NCBI RefSeq assembly: GCF_016495405.1
Contig: NZ_CP044522.1
Location: forward strand, 1,240,001 to 1,304,000
Source: Cobetia sp. cqz5-12
Lineage (GTDB): Bacteria > Pseudomonadota > Gammaproteobacteria > Pseudomonadales > Halomonadaceae
Direction of reading: 5' to 3'
Length of the DNA stretch: 64,000 bases
Positions 6,808-47,724 of the stretch are shown in pieces. The first letter of the stretch is position 1, and each line of letters opens with the position of its first letter. The notes beneath the pieces are model-generated. The model was not told the DNA's origin. It made no database searches and saw only the letters and a program-made list of their open reading frames with translations. Both the position numbers and the translations under genes were made by a program.

Positions 6808-7020
6808 GGGGTTTCCAGCGAGATCAAGGGCAGAGGCGCGCCACCTTAGCGCAACTTGCCGGTCAGCCCAAGCGTGCTGCCTGAGGGCGCGAGCACGTCA
6901 GGTAAGGTGCAGTGGAAAGGAAGGCGGTACGCAACGCCATGCCTCACGCCAGGCAACGCGCCTCTATACAGGCAACGAACATCCAGTCAGGCAACGGATA
7001 TCCAGACAAGGAGTGTAGGC

Positions 7021-8826
7021 ATGACAGCGCACCAATCGACCTCTGACCAGACCTGCCCGCCGCCTTCTTCGGCGACCATGACGCTGTGGCGTTCGGTCAA
7101 CTGTCTGTGGCCGTTGGCGGCGCTGCGTGATCTGGAGCACTGGATGCTCGCGGAAGAGACCATTGCCGCTGACAGTGGCCAGAGCGAGGCGCCGGTGGAG
7201 AAGCGCCTGATGGGGCGCGCCGCGCAATCGGCGTTCGATCTGCTGCGTCAGCGTTGGCCGGAGTCGCGCAGAGTGTGCGTGCTGTGTGGTGGCGGCAACA
7301 ATGGCGGCGATGGCTATCTGCTGGCGCGTCTGGCATTGCTGGCGGGCTTCGAGGTGCGGGTCATCGCCTTGACGCCGGAGGATGCCTTGACCGGTGATGC
7401 GCAGCTGGCCGCGATCGCGGCGCGCGAGGCTGGCGTCGAGACGCTGGCATGGCCGAAGGCCGATGAGGAGGCGGCGGATGCGCTGCTCAAGGGCTGGCCC
7501 TTGCTGGTGGATGCGCTGACCGGCATCGGCCTGCGCGATGCGCCGCGCGGCAGCGTGGTCGAAGCCATCGAGCGCATCAATCACGCTCATCAGCAGGGCG
7601 TGCATGTCATGGCGCTGGATGTGCCCTCAGGCTTGAACGCCGCGACGGGTGCAGTCGCGGGTGTCGCCGTGGAGGCGGATGTGACGCTGACGTTTCTGGT
7701 CGACAAGCCGGGCCTGCACACCGGTCGTGCCGAGCTGCACGCCGGGCATGTCAGTCTGGCGCGCCTGGGCGCGGCGCGTGTATTGCCAGAGGTGGTCGCG
7801 CAGTCGCGTACCGCGGCATTGCTGGCCCGGGACGGCGTACAGCGCCTGACGCCGCGCTGGCTGGAGTCCGAGCTGGTGCCACGTTCGCCGCTGGCCCACA
7901 AGGGTGACACCGGCAGCGTGCTGGTGTTCGGTGGCGGGCCGGGGCTGGGCGGCTCGGTATTGCTGGCCAGCGAAGCGGCGGCACGGGCCGGCGCCGGCAA
8001 GGTCGCGCTGCTGACGGCGCCTGCGCATATCAGCGCCAGCCTGACGCGCTGCCCTGAGGTCATGGCGCGCGGCCTCAAGAGTGGCCCGGAGGGCAGCAGC
8101 CACGATGGCTTCGCCGTGCTTGAGTCACAGCTGGCACAGGCCAGCGTGACGTTGGTTGGCCCGGGCATGGGTACCGAGAGTCTCGAGAGCATGCTGTGGG
8201 GCTGGGGCGGCATGTCGCGGGTGCTGGCGGCGGGTCAGCCGCTGGTCGTGGATGCCGATGGCCTGAGCCTGCTGGCCTGGCGCGCGAGCGAAGGCGAGAT
8301 CATCCGCCGCGACGACTGGGTGCTGACGCCGCATCCTGGCGAGGCCGCGCGTCTGCTCGATTGCAGTGTGGCGGACGTCGAACATGACCGGATCGCAGCC
8401 GCAAGAGCGCTCCAGCAGCGTTTCGGCGGCAGCGTGGTACTCAAGGGCGCGGGCAGTCTGGTGGCGAGCCCTGCGGGAGTTCTCGAGGGGCCGGCGGTGG
8501 CGCTTTGCCCCTATGGCAACCCGGGCATGGCCAGTGGCGGCATGGGCGATGTGCTGGGTGGCATCATCGCGGGGCTGGCGGCGCAGGCGCTCAACGGCGG
8601 CTTCGATGCACGCCAGCCGCGTTCATCCCCAGATGAAGCGGCACAGGCGCGGCGAGTCACGCGCGCCATGGCACAGGCGGCCAGGCTCGGGGTGCTGGTG
8701 CATGCCCTGGCGGCCGACCGGGCGGTACAGGAGCGTGGTGAACGTGGCCTGCTCGCAGGTGATCTGGCATCCTATATGCATTTATTGCTCAATCCACGGG
8801 CCCGAGATGCGCATACTTCTGTCTGA
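7021..8826 (+). CDS. nnr: Bifunctional NAD(P)H-hydrate epimerase / ADP-dependent dehydratase
   Basis: Repairs damaged NAD(P)HX. This 601-aa protein joins an N-terminal YjeF epimerase domain (CGGGNNGGDGY; MALDVPSGLN) to a C-terminal ribokinase-like dehydratase domain (VLTPHPGEAARLL; GNPGMASGGMGDVLGG). The start at 7021 has AAGGAG 7 nt upstream; an in-frame ATG at 6856 has no ribosome site. It overlaps tsaE by 20 bp, so the two are co-transcribed and probably translationally coupled. Confidence 0.95.
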   Translation: MTAHQSTSDQTCPPPSSATMTLWRSVNCLWPLAALRDLEHWMLAEETIAADSGQSEAPVEKRLMGRAAQSAFDLLRQRWPESRRVCVLCGGGNNGGDGYLLARLALLAGFEVRVIALTPEDALTGDAQLAAIAAREAGVETLAWPKADEEAADALLKGWPLLVDALTGIGLRDAPRGSVVEAIERINHAHQQGVHVMALDVPSGLNAATGAVAGVAVEADVTLTFLVDKPGLHTGRAELHAGHVSLARLGAARVLPEVVAQSRTAALLARDGVQRLTPRWLESELVPRSPLAHKGDTGSVLVFGGGPGLGGSVLLASEAAARAGAGKVALLTAPAHISASLTRCPEVMARGLKSGPEGSSHDGFAVLESQLAQASVTLVGPGMGTESLESMLWGWGGMSRVLAAGQPLVVDADGLSLLAWRASEGEIIRRDDWVLTPHPGEAARLLDCSVADVEHDRIAAARALQQRFGGSVVLKGAGSLVASPAGVLEGPAVALCPYGNPGMASGGMGDVLGGIIAGLAAQALNGGFDARQPRSSPDEAAQARRVTRAMAQAARLGVLVHALAADRAVQERGERGLLAGDLASYMHLLLNPRARDAHTSV

Positions 8827-44017: not shown

Positions 44018-45257
44018 GATGCCAGTGTATCCCACGTCGTATGACGGTCGATAATGCGTGGCGCCGCTCGGGCCTGGCCCTGTGTGAACCGAGCCGAGTG
44101 CTGCTTGCCGGCCGTGGTGTCCTGCTGGCGCTCCTTCTCTCCCTCTATCTACTCCCTTCTCCATTCCCTCTGTCTTCTCGCACCTTTTCCTCACTCGCCA
44201 CTATTACCCGACCCTTTACGCCAGTCTTGCGCTGCTCACGCGACACTTTCTCGCCGCTTTCTTGACGCTCTTCCAACACGTTCTGCTGTCCGCCGACGGA
44301 AATACGACGGCCGTCCCCAGGCTGTCATCATTTTGACATCGTTGCATGGGTCGCCTAAGCGATTGAAAACGTTGGGATTACTTCGCGTGGGTGGGTGAGG
44401 GTGCTTCAGTCCGGGTGGGAAGAGCGCTGAATTGATTCGCTGGAGGAATCAATCCTGTTCCGGCGCGGGGATATATCCCGCAGCTCGCGAGGTTCACAAT
44501 GCACTCCATCAACGTTGCAGCAAATATGCAGGGCTGATGAGGCGGGGTTGACCTCGAGCTCTTGGTTGTCGAGCGACATGAATCTTCTCGACATCAGTGG
44601 GCAAGGCGTCACCGACTGACAGTGTGAGGGGCAATATCCACCCCCTGAACAATCGGTCAATGAATATTCGCAAAAATTGATGTGCACAATTTCTTGCTGT
44701 TGGACGCTGTTTTCAGGCGCCTCAGCCAAAGCAGAAAGAAAAATACGCATTTTCTTGTTTTTGTGGCATCCAGTTCTGCTGTGGCGACGTATAACTCATC
44801 AGCACAGCAAGACACACCCTGTAGCGTGCAGCATGTTCGACCAAGGTGGTGGGTGAGAGACAGTCTTCCTCAACCAAAGTCGCTAGCGATCTGCCAGGCC
44901 AAAGCGCCGCTCAAGGGGGTGGGATAGCACGCAAACAAGGAATTCTTGCCCTCTCCATGTTGTACAAGACTTTTTCAGAGCCGCTTCAATAGCTTTATAG
45001 GTGATGAGAAGGGCAGGAGGGTCAAGCGCTGGGGAAGGCCGTTCGTTTCCAGTGATGTTGCTCAAAGAGAAACAGTGAGCTTCCAGTTCTACGGCTAGTT
45101 TGAACGCAGAATAACGATTAGTCTGTTAATCATCGAAACGCAGCACGCACCACAGTCAGTGAAGGCCAGGGCCCGGACAGGGGTCAGCAAAACACTCCTT
45201 TACTGACTGACAACGACTCAAAGCGGAAGCATCCGCACCAGGACCAGGAGATACACC
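44018..45257. other. Gene-poor 1.2-kb spacer before the small-protein array
   Basis: No frame here is convincing; the longest (44406-44750, minus) has odd composition and no recognisable motif. The stretch 44680-44780 is clearly AT-richer than the surroundings. A 12-bp palindrome GGGATATATCCC lies at 44468-44479. The right end should carry the promoter of the first small gene. It may be decayed or recently acquired DNA. Confidence 0.5.
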
Positions 45258-45599
45258 ATGAAAAACATTTCCCTCAAGACTCTGATCGCTACCGTCGCCA
45301 TCGCCACTGCCAGCACCTCCGTATTCGCAGCTGACGATAGCCCCGCCGCCGTGCGCGTCCAGAATGCCATCAGCAGCCAGCAGATCATGGGCCAGACTCA
45401 GCCGGCTGCCACCAGCCAGCAGAGCTTCTCCGAAACGGGCATGAGCGTTGCTGCCGGTCGTGTTGAGCAGGCACTCAATGCTGACCACATCCGCGGCGTC
45501 GATACCGCTGCCGTGTCCCAGGCCAACGCCACCGTCAATGATCAGGGCAAGAGCGTCGCCGCCAGCCGCGTTCAGCAGCACATCAGCGACAACGCCTGA
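45258..45599 (+). CDS. Small exported repeat protein, paralogue 1 of 4
   Basis: 113 aa, unrecognised family. A signal peptide ends near SVFA/ADDSP. The mature part has two full units of 35-36 residues and one short one. Each starts with a S-x-A-A-x-R-V-x-x-A-I/L core and, in the full units, continues to I-x-G: SPAAVRVQNAISSQQIMG, SVAAGRVEQALNADHIRG, SVAASRVQQHISDNA. There are no Cys residues, and Gln, Ala and Ser dominate. AGGAG lies 7 nt before the ATG. A 7-bp hairpin follows at 45608-45633. Probably periplasmic or secreted; function unknown. Confidence 0.85.
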   Translation: MKNISLKTLIATVAIATASTSVFAADDSPAAVRVQNAISSQQIMGQTQPAATSQQSFSETGMSVAAGRVEQALNADHIRGVDTAAVSQANATVNDQGKSVAASRVQQHISDNA

Positions 45600-45685
45600 A
45601 GCAGATAGGGTCACGCTGACAGCTCAGTGACCCCCGAACATCGCCTCACCTGACATTTGACCTTGCCCATTTCTGGAGAATCATC

Positions 45686-46018
45686 ATGAAAACCCTGACT
45701 TCCCTGATCGCCGCCGCTGCCGTTTCCATTGCTGCCACCGGTGTTGCCACCGCTGATGAAAGTGTTGCCGATGCCCAGGTGCGTGCCGCACTGAGCGAAC
45801 AGGTCATCCACGGCCAGGCGCAGCCCGCCGCGACGCAGCTGAATGCTGCCGAGTCCGGCATGAGTGCCGCTGCCAACCGTGTCGAGCAGTCCCTGAACGC
45901 CGACACCATCAAGGGTGAACAGACGCATGCTGTCTCCCGCGGCCAGAGCCTGAGCAACGACAACGGCAAGAGTGTCGCGGCATCACGCTTTGAAGATGCG
46001 TTGAACGACAACGCCTGA
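45686..46018 (+). CDS. Small exported repeat protein, paralogue 2 of 4
   Basis: 110 aa, same family as the gene before it. The signal peptide ends near GVATA/DESVA. Units begin at SVADAQVRAALSEQVIHG, SAAANRVEQSLNADTIKG and SVAASRFEDALNDNA. The first unit carries IHGQAQPAAT, which is nearly shared with paralogue 3. GGAGA precedes the ATG. A short inverted repeat (GGGCC with GGCCC, 46026-46043) follows the stop. Confidence 0.85.
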   Translation: MKTLTSLIAAAAVSIAATGVATADESVADAQVRAALSEQVIHGQAQPAATQLNAAESGMSAAANRVEQSLNADTIKGEQTHAVSRGQSLSNDNGKSVAASRFEDALNDNA

Positions 46019-46108
46019 GTCTGCAGGGCCTGATTCATGGCCCCGGGACCACAGCAGCACTGTTCTCCCTTTTATCCATTCGCCATTCACCTTTTCTGGA
46101 GTCATCTC

Positions 46109-46441
46109 ATGAAAACCCTCAATGCCCTTATCGCCGCCGTTGCTCTGTCCGTGACCGCCACTGGCGTCGCCAATGCCGATAGCGTTGCCGACCAGCAGGT
46201 TCGCGCCAACCTCAGTGAATCCGTGATCCACGGTCAGGCCCAGCAGGCAGCCACTCAGCAGCAGGCCATCACCGATGCAGGCAAGAGCGTTGCGGCCAGC
46301 CGTGTCGAGCAGGCGCTGAATAGTCAGACCATCAAGGGTCAGCAGGCGCAGGCCACTCGTGACACCCAGCAGTTCGTCAATGATTCCGGCAAGAGCGTTG
46401 CCGCGTCACGTGTCGAGCATACCCTGAACGACAACGCCTGA
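46109..46441 (+). CDS. Small exported repeat protein, paralogue 3 of 4
   Basis: 110 aa. The signal peptide ends near GVANA/DSVAD. The units are SVADQQVRANLSESVIHG, SVAASRVEQALNSQTIKG and SVAASRVEHTLNDNA; this copy is the most regular of the four. The start at 46109 has GGAG 7 nt upstream; an ATG at 46037 is in frame but gives no signal peptide. A 7-bp hairpin (GCGTGGC with GCCACGC) follows at 46443-46459. Confidence 0.85.
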   Translation: MKTLNALIAAVALSVTATGVANADSVADQQVRANLSESVIHGQAQQAATQQQAITDAGKSVAASRVEQALNSQTIKGQQAQATRDTQQFVNDSGKSVAASRVEHTLNDNA

Positions 46442-46565
46442 TGCGTGGCGCCGCCACGCTGACGGCACCCAAGACAGACCCTGCTTGCAACCTGGCTGAT
46501 CTGGTAGATGTTGTTGATCCGGTTGGCCCAGTTGACCCGACAAAAGATTTCACTGGAGATATCTC

Positions 46566-46898
46566 ATGAAACTGCTCAATACCCTCATCGCCGCCACCGC
46601 GCTTTCCGTTGCTGCCACCGGTGCTGTCTTTGCAGACAGCGTCGCTGACCTTCAGGTGCGTTCTGCGCTCAGCGAATCCGGCATCCATGGCCAGGCCCAG
46701 TCCGCCGCCGCCGAGCAAGCCACCTTTGCCGATACCGGCATGAGCGTCGCCGCGGGCCGTGTCGAAAGCTCCCTGAACGATGCTGCGATCGAAGGTCAGC
46801 GCGAGACATTGGCGTCCGACTCCCAGCAATTCGCCAACGATGCCGGCAAGAGCGTGTCCGTGACTCGCGTCCAGCATGCTCTGAGCGAAAGTGTCTGA
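46566..46898 (+). CDS. Small exported repeat protein, paralogue 4 of 4
   Basis: 110 aa. The signal peptide ends near GAVFA/DSVAD. Units begin at SVADLQVRSALSESGIHG, SVAAGRVESSLNDAAIEG and SVSVTRVQHALSESV. It is the most diverged copy in the last unit. GGAG precedes the ATG. After the stop, GTCTGATTCAG is repeated at 46893-46903 and 46921-46931, so the stop region itself is duplicated. Confidence 0.85.
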   Translation: MKLLNTLIAATALSVAATGAVFADSVADLQVRSALSESGIHGQAQSAAAEQATFADTGMSVAAGRVESSLNDAAIEGQRETLASDSQQFANDAGKSVSVTRVQHALSESV

Positions 46899-46981
46899 TT
46901 CAGATCATCCGAGACAGATTGTCTGATTCAGGTTGTCTGAGCCCCGCTCTGATTCGTGGCCACGCATTGCAGCGACCGACT

Positions 46982-47041
46982 CAAGTGCCCTCGCAGCAAG
47001 TGCCCTCGCAGCAAGTGCCCTCGCAGCAAGTGCCATCATGA
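46982..47041. repeat. 15-bp tandem repeat array after the small-gene cluster
   Basis: CAAGTGCCCTCGCAG occurs three times exactly (46982-47026) with a partial fourth copy. A short plus-strand frame across it would encode ALAAS repeats but has no ribosome site. The rest of the spacer 46899-47457 holds no supported gene; GTGGGTAGTG is repeated near 47297 and 47335. Confidence 0.88.
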
Positions 47042-47457: not shown

Positions 47458-47724
47458 ATGATCAAGTCATTCATGACTCACGGCCTGGCAGTGTTTGTCC
47501 TCGCCACCAGCGGTCTGGCCAGTGCCGATATCAGCACTGATGACAGCAGTAACGCGCGCTTCAATAGCGCCCAATCACATGGCATTCACAGCGAAATGCG
47601 TGATTACCAGAAGAGCGAAAAGCGCTACGCTGCAAATCCTGACATTCTGATCACCAGCCGTGGCAATGTGTTTGCCGATAGTGATGTGCAGGGTGCAGTC
47701 GATATCGACGCCGATCACCGCTGA
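47458..47724 (+). CDS. Small exported protein of unknown family
   Basis: 88 aa with a signal peptide ending near GLASA/DISTD. The mature 65 residues are polar, rich in Asp, Ser and Asn, without Cys. A weak likeness to the four upstream paralogues (NSAQSHGIHSE against LSESGIHGQ) may be chance. GGAGG lies 9 nt before the ATG, a strong ribosome site that supports a real gene. Function unknown. Confidence 0.7.
   Translation: MIKSFMTHGLAVFVLATSGLASADISTDDSSNARFNSAQSHGIHSEMRDYQKSEKRYAANPDILITSRGNVFADSDVQGAVDIDADHR

Follow-up and report, generated by a model that had tools for sequence, protein, structure and literature searches.

Small exported proteins that occur as sets of paralogues have been described before. 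In enterobacteria, the DUF1471 proteins (BhsA/YbiJ) are small, exported to the periplasm and encoded by many paralogous genes per genome, a trait that the Cobetia family described here has in common with them. Group 3 LEA proteins and hydrophilins are small, Cys-free, mostly Trp-free and probably disordered, with inducible amphipathic helices, and the Cobetia proteins appear to resemble them in these respects; a hydrophilin is defined by a glycine content above 6% and a hydrophilicity index above 1. In the Fap system of Pseudomonas, FapC contains three imperfect repeats, each of which carries the Asn/Gln motif G..NqaGnqqN (PMC12392863).

The window considered here is a stretch of 64,000 nucleotides from Cobetia sp. 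cqz5-12 (contig NZ_CP044522.1, positions 1,240,001 to 1,304,000). Between positions 45258 and 46898 it carries four intact + strand genes (cluster A), whose products are 110–113 aa long. The original prediction had described four head-to-tail genes, each with a ribosome site, a signal peptide and a Cys-free mature part, and they were found as described: a GGAG-type ribosome site (CAGGAG or CTGGAG) lies a few bases 5′ of each gene, each protein begins with a signal peptide that is Sec-like by rule (a basic start with K, a hydrophobic core and AxA), and the mature parts, of 87–88 residues, contain neither Cys nor Trp. Export, which had also been proposed, is predicted by this signal-peptide rule. 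Gene 1 (45258..45599, +) encodes an alpha-type precursor of 113 aa made of a signal peptide and three repeats, with dN 0 and dS 0.12 against its orthologue in genome G005. It is followed by three beta-type genes encoding proteins of 110 aa: gene 2 (45686..46018, +; dN/dS 0.04–0.08), gene 3 (46109..46441, +; dN/dS 0.13–0.15 against the two nearest species) and gene 4 (46566..46898, +; dN/dS 0.15–0.18). The start of gene 3 was set at the ATG at 46109, which has a ribosome site, the mechanical ORF opening at 46037. Genes 2, 3 and 4 are 55, 50 and 46% identical to gene 1, and a tblastn search of the genome with gene 2 recovers the other three window genes (E 8e-32 to 6e-24), so the similarity is well outside what chance would give. 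The proposed origin by serial duplication is supported.

For the window genes, comparison with orthologues from the two nearest species gives dN values of 0–0.029 and dS values of 0.08–0.16 (dN/dS 0–0.18). With dN well below dS, all four frames are evidently translated and subject to purifying selection; the result speaks against the possibility, raised from the outset, of untranslated frames, and bears out the claim that selection keeps the copies. Antisense ORFs overlap the cluster (45156-45614, 45611-45928, 45646-46038 and 46377-46877), with nothing in their favour. Codon adaptation of eight cluster genes (0.64–0.78) falls inside the ribosomal-protein range, but the background is too broad, and probably contaminated by spurious ORFs, for this to serve as a sign of high expression. 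Directly 3′ of gene 4, a short tandem repeat with AAGTGCCCTCGCAGC units occupies 46980-47040. Further downstream of the cluster, 47458-47724 (+) encodes another small exported orphan of 88 aa, with no family match; it is 93–94% identical in G002 and G005, present as fragments in G004, and absent from G001 and G003.

How far does this family extend? The genome studied (G000) contains nine copies, divided between cluster A, a second multi-gene cluster (cluster B, genome positions 1641595-1643174) and one lone copy (2584594-2584935). Across six Cobetia species, each represented by one genome, there are 53 copies, 8–10 in each, their number differing between species. Outside the genus, searches of about 270 genomes from the bacterial family, 390 from the order and 397 from the phylum gave no convincing match, nor did the plasmids, phages and viral contigs searched contain the family. 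Searches of Pfam, NCBIfam, PHROGs, PADLOC and PDB sequences gave no match over a curated cut-off or with E < 0.001; the best Pfam hit has an E value of 0.0046 in 1 of 36 members, and every window gene stays below the cut-off. The original statement that no known family matches has thus held, the profile search having led to no well-described family. Possible distant relatives in other Halomonadaceae were rejected, the best of them being short and partial (E 0.002–0.007), and the top candidate, at L057, was judged a chance match at a place where the long ORFs lie in other frames and on the opposite strand. A profile of the repeat unit matches this family alone in the genome, and other genera stay at E 0.01–0.1. 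The titles and abstracts of the literature on Cobetia genomes and proteomes do not name these proteins. As judged by the genome samples and libraries searched, the family is confined to Cobetia, is free of detectable relatives and has not been described previously; very diverged relatives could have escaped these searches.

The architecture of the proteins is repetitive. The original prediction had pointed out a shared S-V-A-A-x-R-V-E-x-A-L-N core; this core is present, but it is merely one of three repeats of about 36 residues in each protein. Comparison of the profile with itself gives matches at offsets 35, 36 and 71 (score 36.9; the highest score among 1000 shuffles was 20.4), and each protein is made of two full repeats followed by a shortened third. 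The unit reads D-x-G-x-S-V-A-A-x-R-V-x-x-[AS]-[LI]-[SN]-x3-I-x-G, then a variable linker. A search of this genome with the unit profile detects 27 of them, as nine proteins with three units each should give. On the + strand, the repeats lie at 45330-45437, 45432-45545 and 45540-45596 in gene 1 (span 45330..45596), at 45752-45856, 45851-45964 and 45959-46015 in gene 2 (45752..46015), at 46175-46279, 46274-46387 and 46382-46438 in gene 3 (46175..46438), and at 46632-46736, 46731-46844 and 46839-46895 in gene 4 (46632..46895). Ser stands at core position 1 in 95 out of 96 distinct units, and residues A3, A4, V7, A10 and L11 map to one face of a helix. The Ser looks like a helix N-cap and the Gly that follows like a C-cap. 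AlphaFold2 places helices at every repeat core, with a pLDDT of 53 for the whole protein, a model too poor to show the fold, and of 73 for a single unit (about 83 in the core). The hydrophobic moment is 0.27 at the helical angle (shuffled, 0.25) and 0.33 near the strand angle (shuffled, 0.25); as the helical value does not exceed that near the strand angle, the moment does not discriminate helix from strand, and a beta form is possible. The mature proteins are Cys-free, consist of A, S, Q, N, T and G for 46–64%, and have a GRAVY of −0.27 to −0.81 and a Gly content of 4.6–7.9%.

Both the tree and the alignment divide the family into two subfamilies. Leaving aside the three lone copies and one chimera, all 25 alpha members have A31 and Q35, and all 24 beta members have D31 and R35, two residues whose i, i+4 spacing would suit a helical salt bridge. 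The genes are arranged in cassettes, each made of a promoter-like element, one or more alpha genes and one or more beta genes, and in every promoter-led block an alpha front comes first and beta last. Written with a for alpha and b for beta, cluster A is abbb and cluster B aaab in G000, G002 and G005; the blocks are ab and aaaaab in G001; the promoter-led blocks of G003 are ab + abb and abb; and those of G004 are cb + abb and abb, where c is the chimera (L049:10560-10901, −), which joins an alpha front half to a beta back half and gives evidence, from its sequence, for recombination between the paralogous types. The simplest history would be that one alpha-beta cassette was duplicated together with its promoter, beta then expanding in A and alpha in B. 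Two neighbouring alpha copies in G001, with zero coding differences, reflect recent amplification, and the alpha/beta split itself an old, maintained divergence. Selection for dose or for variants had been suggested originally as alternatives; it looks like both, given these near-identical neighbours on the one hand and the old split on the other.

The promoter-like element of cluster A lies at 45066..45141 (+), upstream of the first alpha gene, and reads GGAAACAGTGAGCTKCCAG-N4-AYGGCTAGTTNG...ATAANNATTAGTCTGTTAA. It comprises about 61 bp within this interval, with an invariant TGnTA(A), starting at 45124, about 131 bp 5′ of the ATG. The element precedes 14 of 15 gene blocks, the exception being the alpha-alpha block of G003, and an ungapped alignment of the 14 copies has a mean column identity of 83%. 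The A and B elements of this genome are 80% identical over 61 bp, compared with 29–37% for the flanks in register. A sequence model of the element, run against four genomes, finds the family clusters only (E below 1e-17; next best 0.4). A genome-wide regulon was rejected, good matches in the genomes searched being limited to these clusters. The invariant TGnTAA resembles an extended −10 box, and an activator might use the conserved blocks near −42 and −62; the element would then act as a promoter. It was not called by a scan for the sigma-70 consensus, and an Rfam search of the leader returned no RNA family. The nine copies in the genome, their confinement to Cobetia, the triple repeat, the alpha/beta cassettes and the private element of each cassette had all escaped the original prediction.

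The neighbours of the two clusters seem to point to no pathway: cluster A is flanked by DUF1853 and a HAD hydrolase, and cluster B by an ADP-ribosylglycohydrolase and a peptide transporter. The lone copies have other surroundings: in G000, G001 and, as judged by position, G002, they lie 3′ of an ankyrin gene and a signal-peptide catalase and are co-directional with them, which may be an envelope oxidative-stress setting. A reference title in PMC8115020 places katB-ankB of P. aeruginosa under OxyR control, and the lone-copy locus is likened to it by gene content only. Short tandem units (ATCAATTTTACGTTCT) also occur in the interval that separates the lone copy from the ankyrin gene (L040, about 6997-7190).

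What might these proteins do? The reading that we prefer, at a probability of roughly 0.4, is that co-expressed, mostly disordered and helix-forming alpha and beta proteins jointly serve as a dose-dependent protectant of the envelope. Since a dedicated promoter element would drive each cassette and ribosomes would start at every gene, the alpha and beta products would be made together. They would then be exported by the Sec pathway, with the removal of about 23 residues, to yield acidic, Cys-free and largely disordered mature proteins of ~9 kDa. Each would have three short amphipathic helices, with an N-cap Ser, A-A-x-R-V-x-x-A-L and a C-cap I-x-G, separated by Ala/Gln/Ser-rich linkers. Once in the envelope, the helices of alpha and beta would pair with one another, with unfolded proteins or with the membrane; abundant and LEA- or chaperone-like, the proteins would guard against salt, drying or oxidative stress, at a dose set by the number of tandem copies. 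What speaks, by analogy, for such a role is that they are small and hydrophilic, probably form helices, occur in many copies at a variable dose and are strongly conserved. In its favour are the purifying selection, the three repeats, the fixed alpha and beta residues, the family-specific element and the varying copy number, as well as the Ser at core position 1, the residues on one face, the core helices of AlphaFold2, the mature composition and the catalase setting of the lone copies. Against it are the composition, which falls outside the strict hydrophilin definition, the moment at the strand angle, the poor whole-protein model, the limitation of the catalase association to the lone copies, the ankyrin genes of G003 and G004 that no copy adjoins, and the uninformative neighbours of clusters A and B. 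A low pLDDT with helices is no more than compatible with LEA-like behaviour. It is conceivable, though less likely than not, that co-expressed alpha and beta form an obligate hetero-assembly, as a two-component envelope system unique to Cobetia with an undescribed fold or material and a dedicated regulator that reads the private element.

The main rival to the protectant is an extracellular polymer of two subunits, in which the paralogous alpha and beta would co-assemble into a fibre or coat, as do the unrelated FapB/FapC or CsgB/CsgA. The paralogous pair, the three imperfect repeats of ~36 residues (FapC likewise has three; PMC12392863), the Gln/Ser/Ala-rich linkers, the low aromatic content, the signal peptides and the retention of both types in every promoter-led cassette all suit a polymer, as does a strand-angle moment slightly over chance. 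However, the proteins lack the curlin and Fap motifs, the clusters have no recognised dedicated secretion gene beside them, the AlphaFold2 model shows helices rather than strands, and the genome holds a curli operon of its own with true curlin-repeat subunits, all of which makes a polymer unlikely.

The lone copies suggest another role, as partners of periplasmic enzymes: an ancestral accessory of the catalase and ankyrin proteins would have been amplified into the clusters, whose products, now retargeted, would stabilise specific envelope enzymes. The position of all three lone copies downstream of an ankyrin gene, and co-directional with it, is what such an origin would predict. However, the ankyrin gene of G003 and of G004 has no family member as its neighbour (G005 lacks both that gene and a lone copy), and the long branches of the lone copies, joined with weak support (61/0), do not allow these to be called ancestral; we consider this role improbable. 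Less probable still is that the proteins are secreted molecules acting on other cells, whether competitors or animal and algal hosts, with copies diversified for variety. Export, multiple copies, restriction to the genus, a variable number and the recombination between types in the G004 chimera would fit such molecules, but the orthologues are under strong purifying rather than diversifying selection, their surroundings show no recognised immunity-like or processing gene, and they match no family of bacteriocins, effectors or defence proteins.

What is new here is a family of putatively exported proteins, undescribed in the libraries searched and apparently restricted to one genus, with an unexpected two-type cassette design. 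It offers a clean case of a genus-specific family that has no detectable relatives, possesses its own promoter-like element and has diverged into two partner types, both of which have been kept. Given the small cassettes and the possibility of deleting every copy, one could test how orphan exported proteins of this sort arise and what they are used for. Should they prove to protect the envelope or to assemble into a material, they would provide short, Cys-free and easily made building blocks.

Set against the described systems, the family is close to several and coincides with none. The DUF1471 proteins have no repeats of the Cobetia kind, and the single match to them covers residues 1–36, mostly signal peptide (an E value of 0.032 to the YbiJ model, well short of the cut-off). 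Unlike group 3 LEA proteins and hydrophilins, the Cobetia proteins are predicted to be exported, are too little hydrophilic for the strict definition, and have no sequence match to that family. Like CsgA and CsgB, they are small paralogues with signal peptides, built of repeats and rich in Gln and in small residues, but neither Curlin_rpt (PF07012) nor the Q-x-G-x2-N core was found in the family, and the genome's true curlin proteins do match. The curli-type operon of this genome (L111:5146-11199; G000:C1 about 4.189-4.195 Mb, − strand) encodes CsgE, CsgF, CsgG, a CsgB-like protein, a CsgA-like protein of 376 aa with many curlin repeats and two LuxR-type regulators; at ~4.19 Mb, its csgE, csgF and csgG are not linked to the clusters, which lie at 1.29 and 1.64 Mb. 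Compared with FapB and FapC of Pseudomonas, the Cobetia proteins are far smaller, are predicted to be helical rather than cross-beta, lack the motif GxxNqaGnqqN/G..NqaGnqqN in their repeats and have no recognised fap-like neighbours; what they have in common with the Fap proteins is a paralogous exported pair with linkers and three imperfect repeats of similar length.
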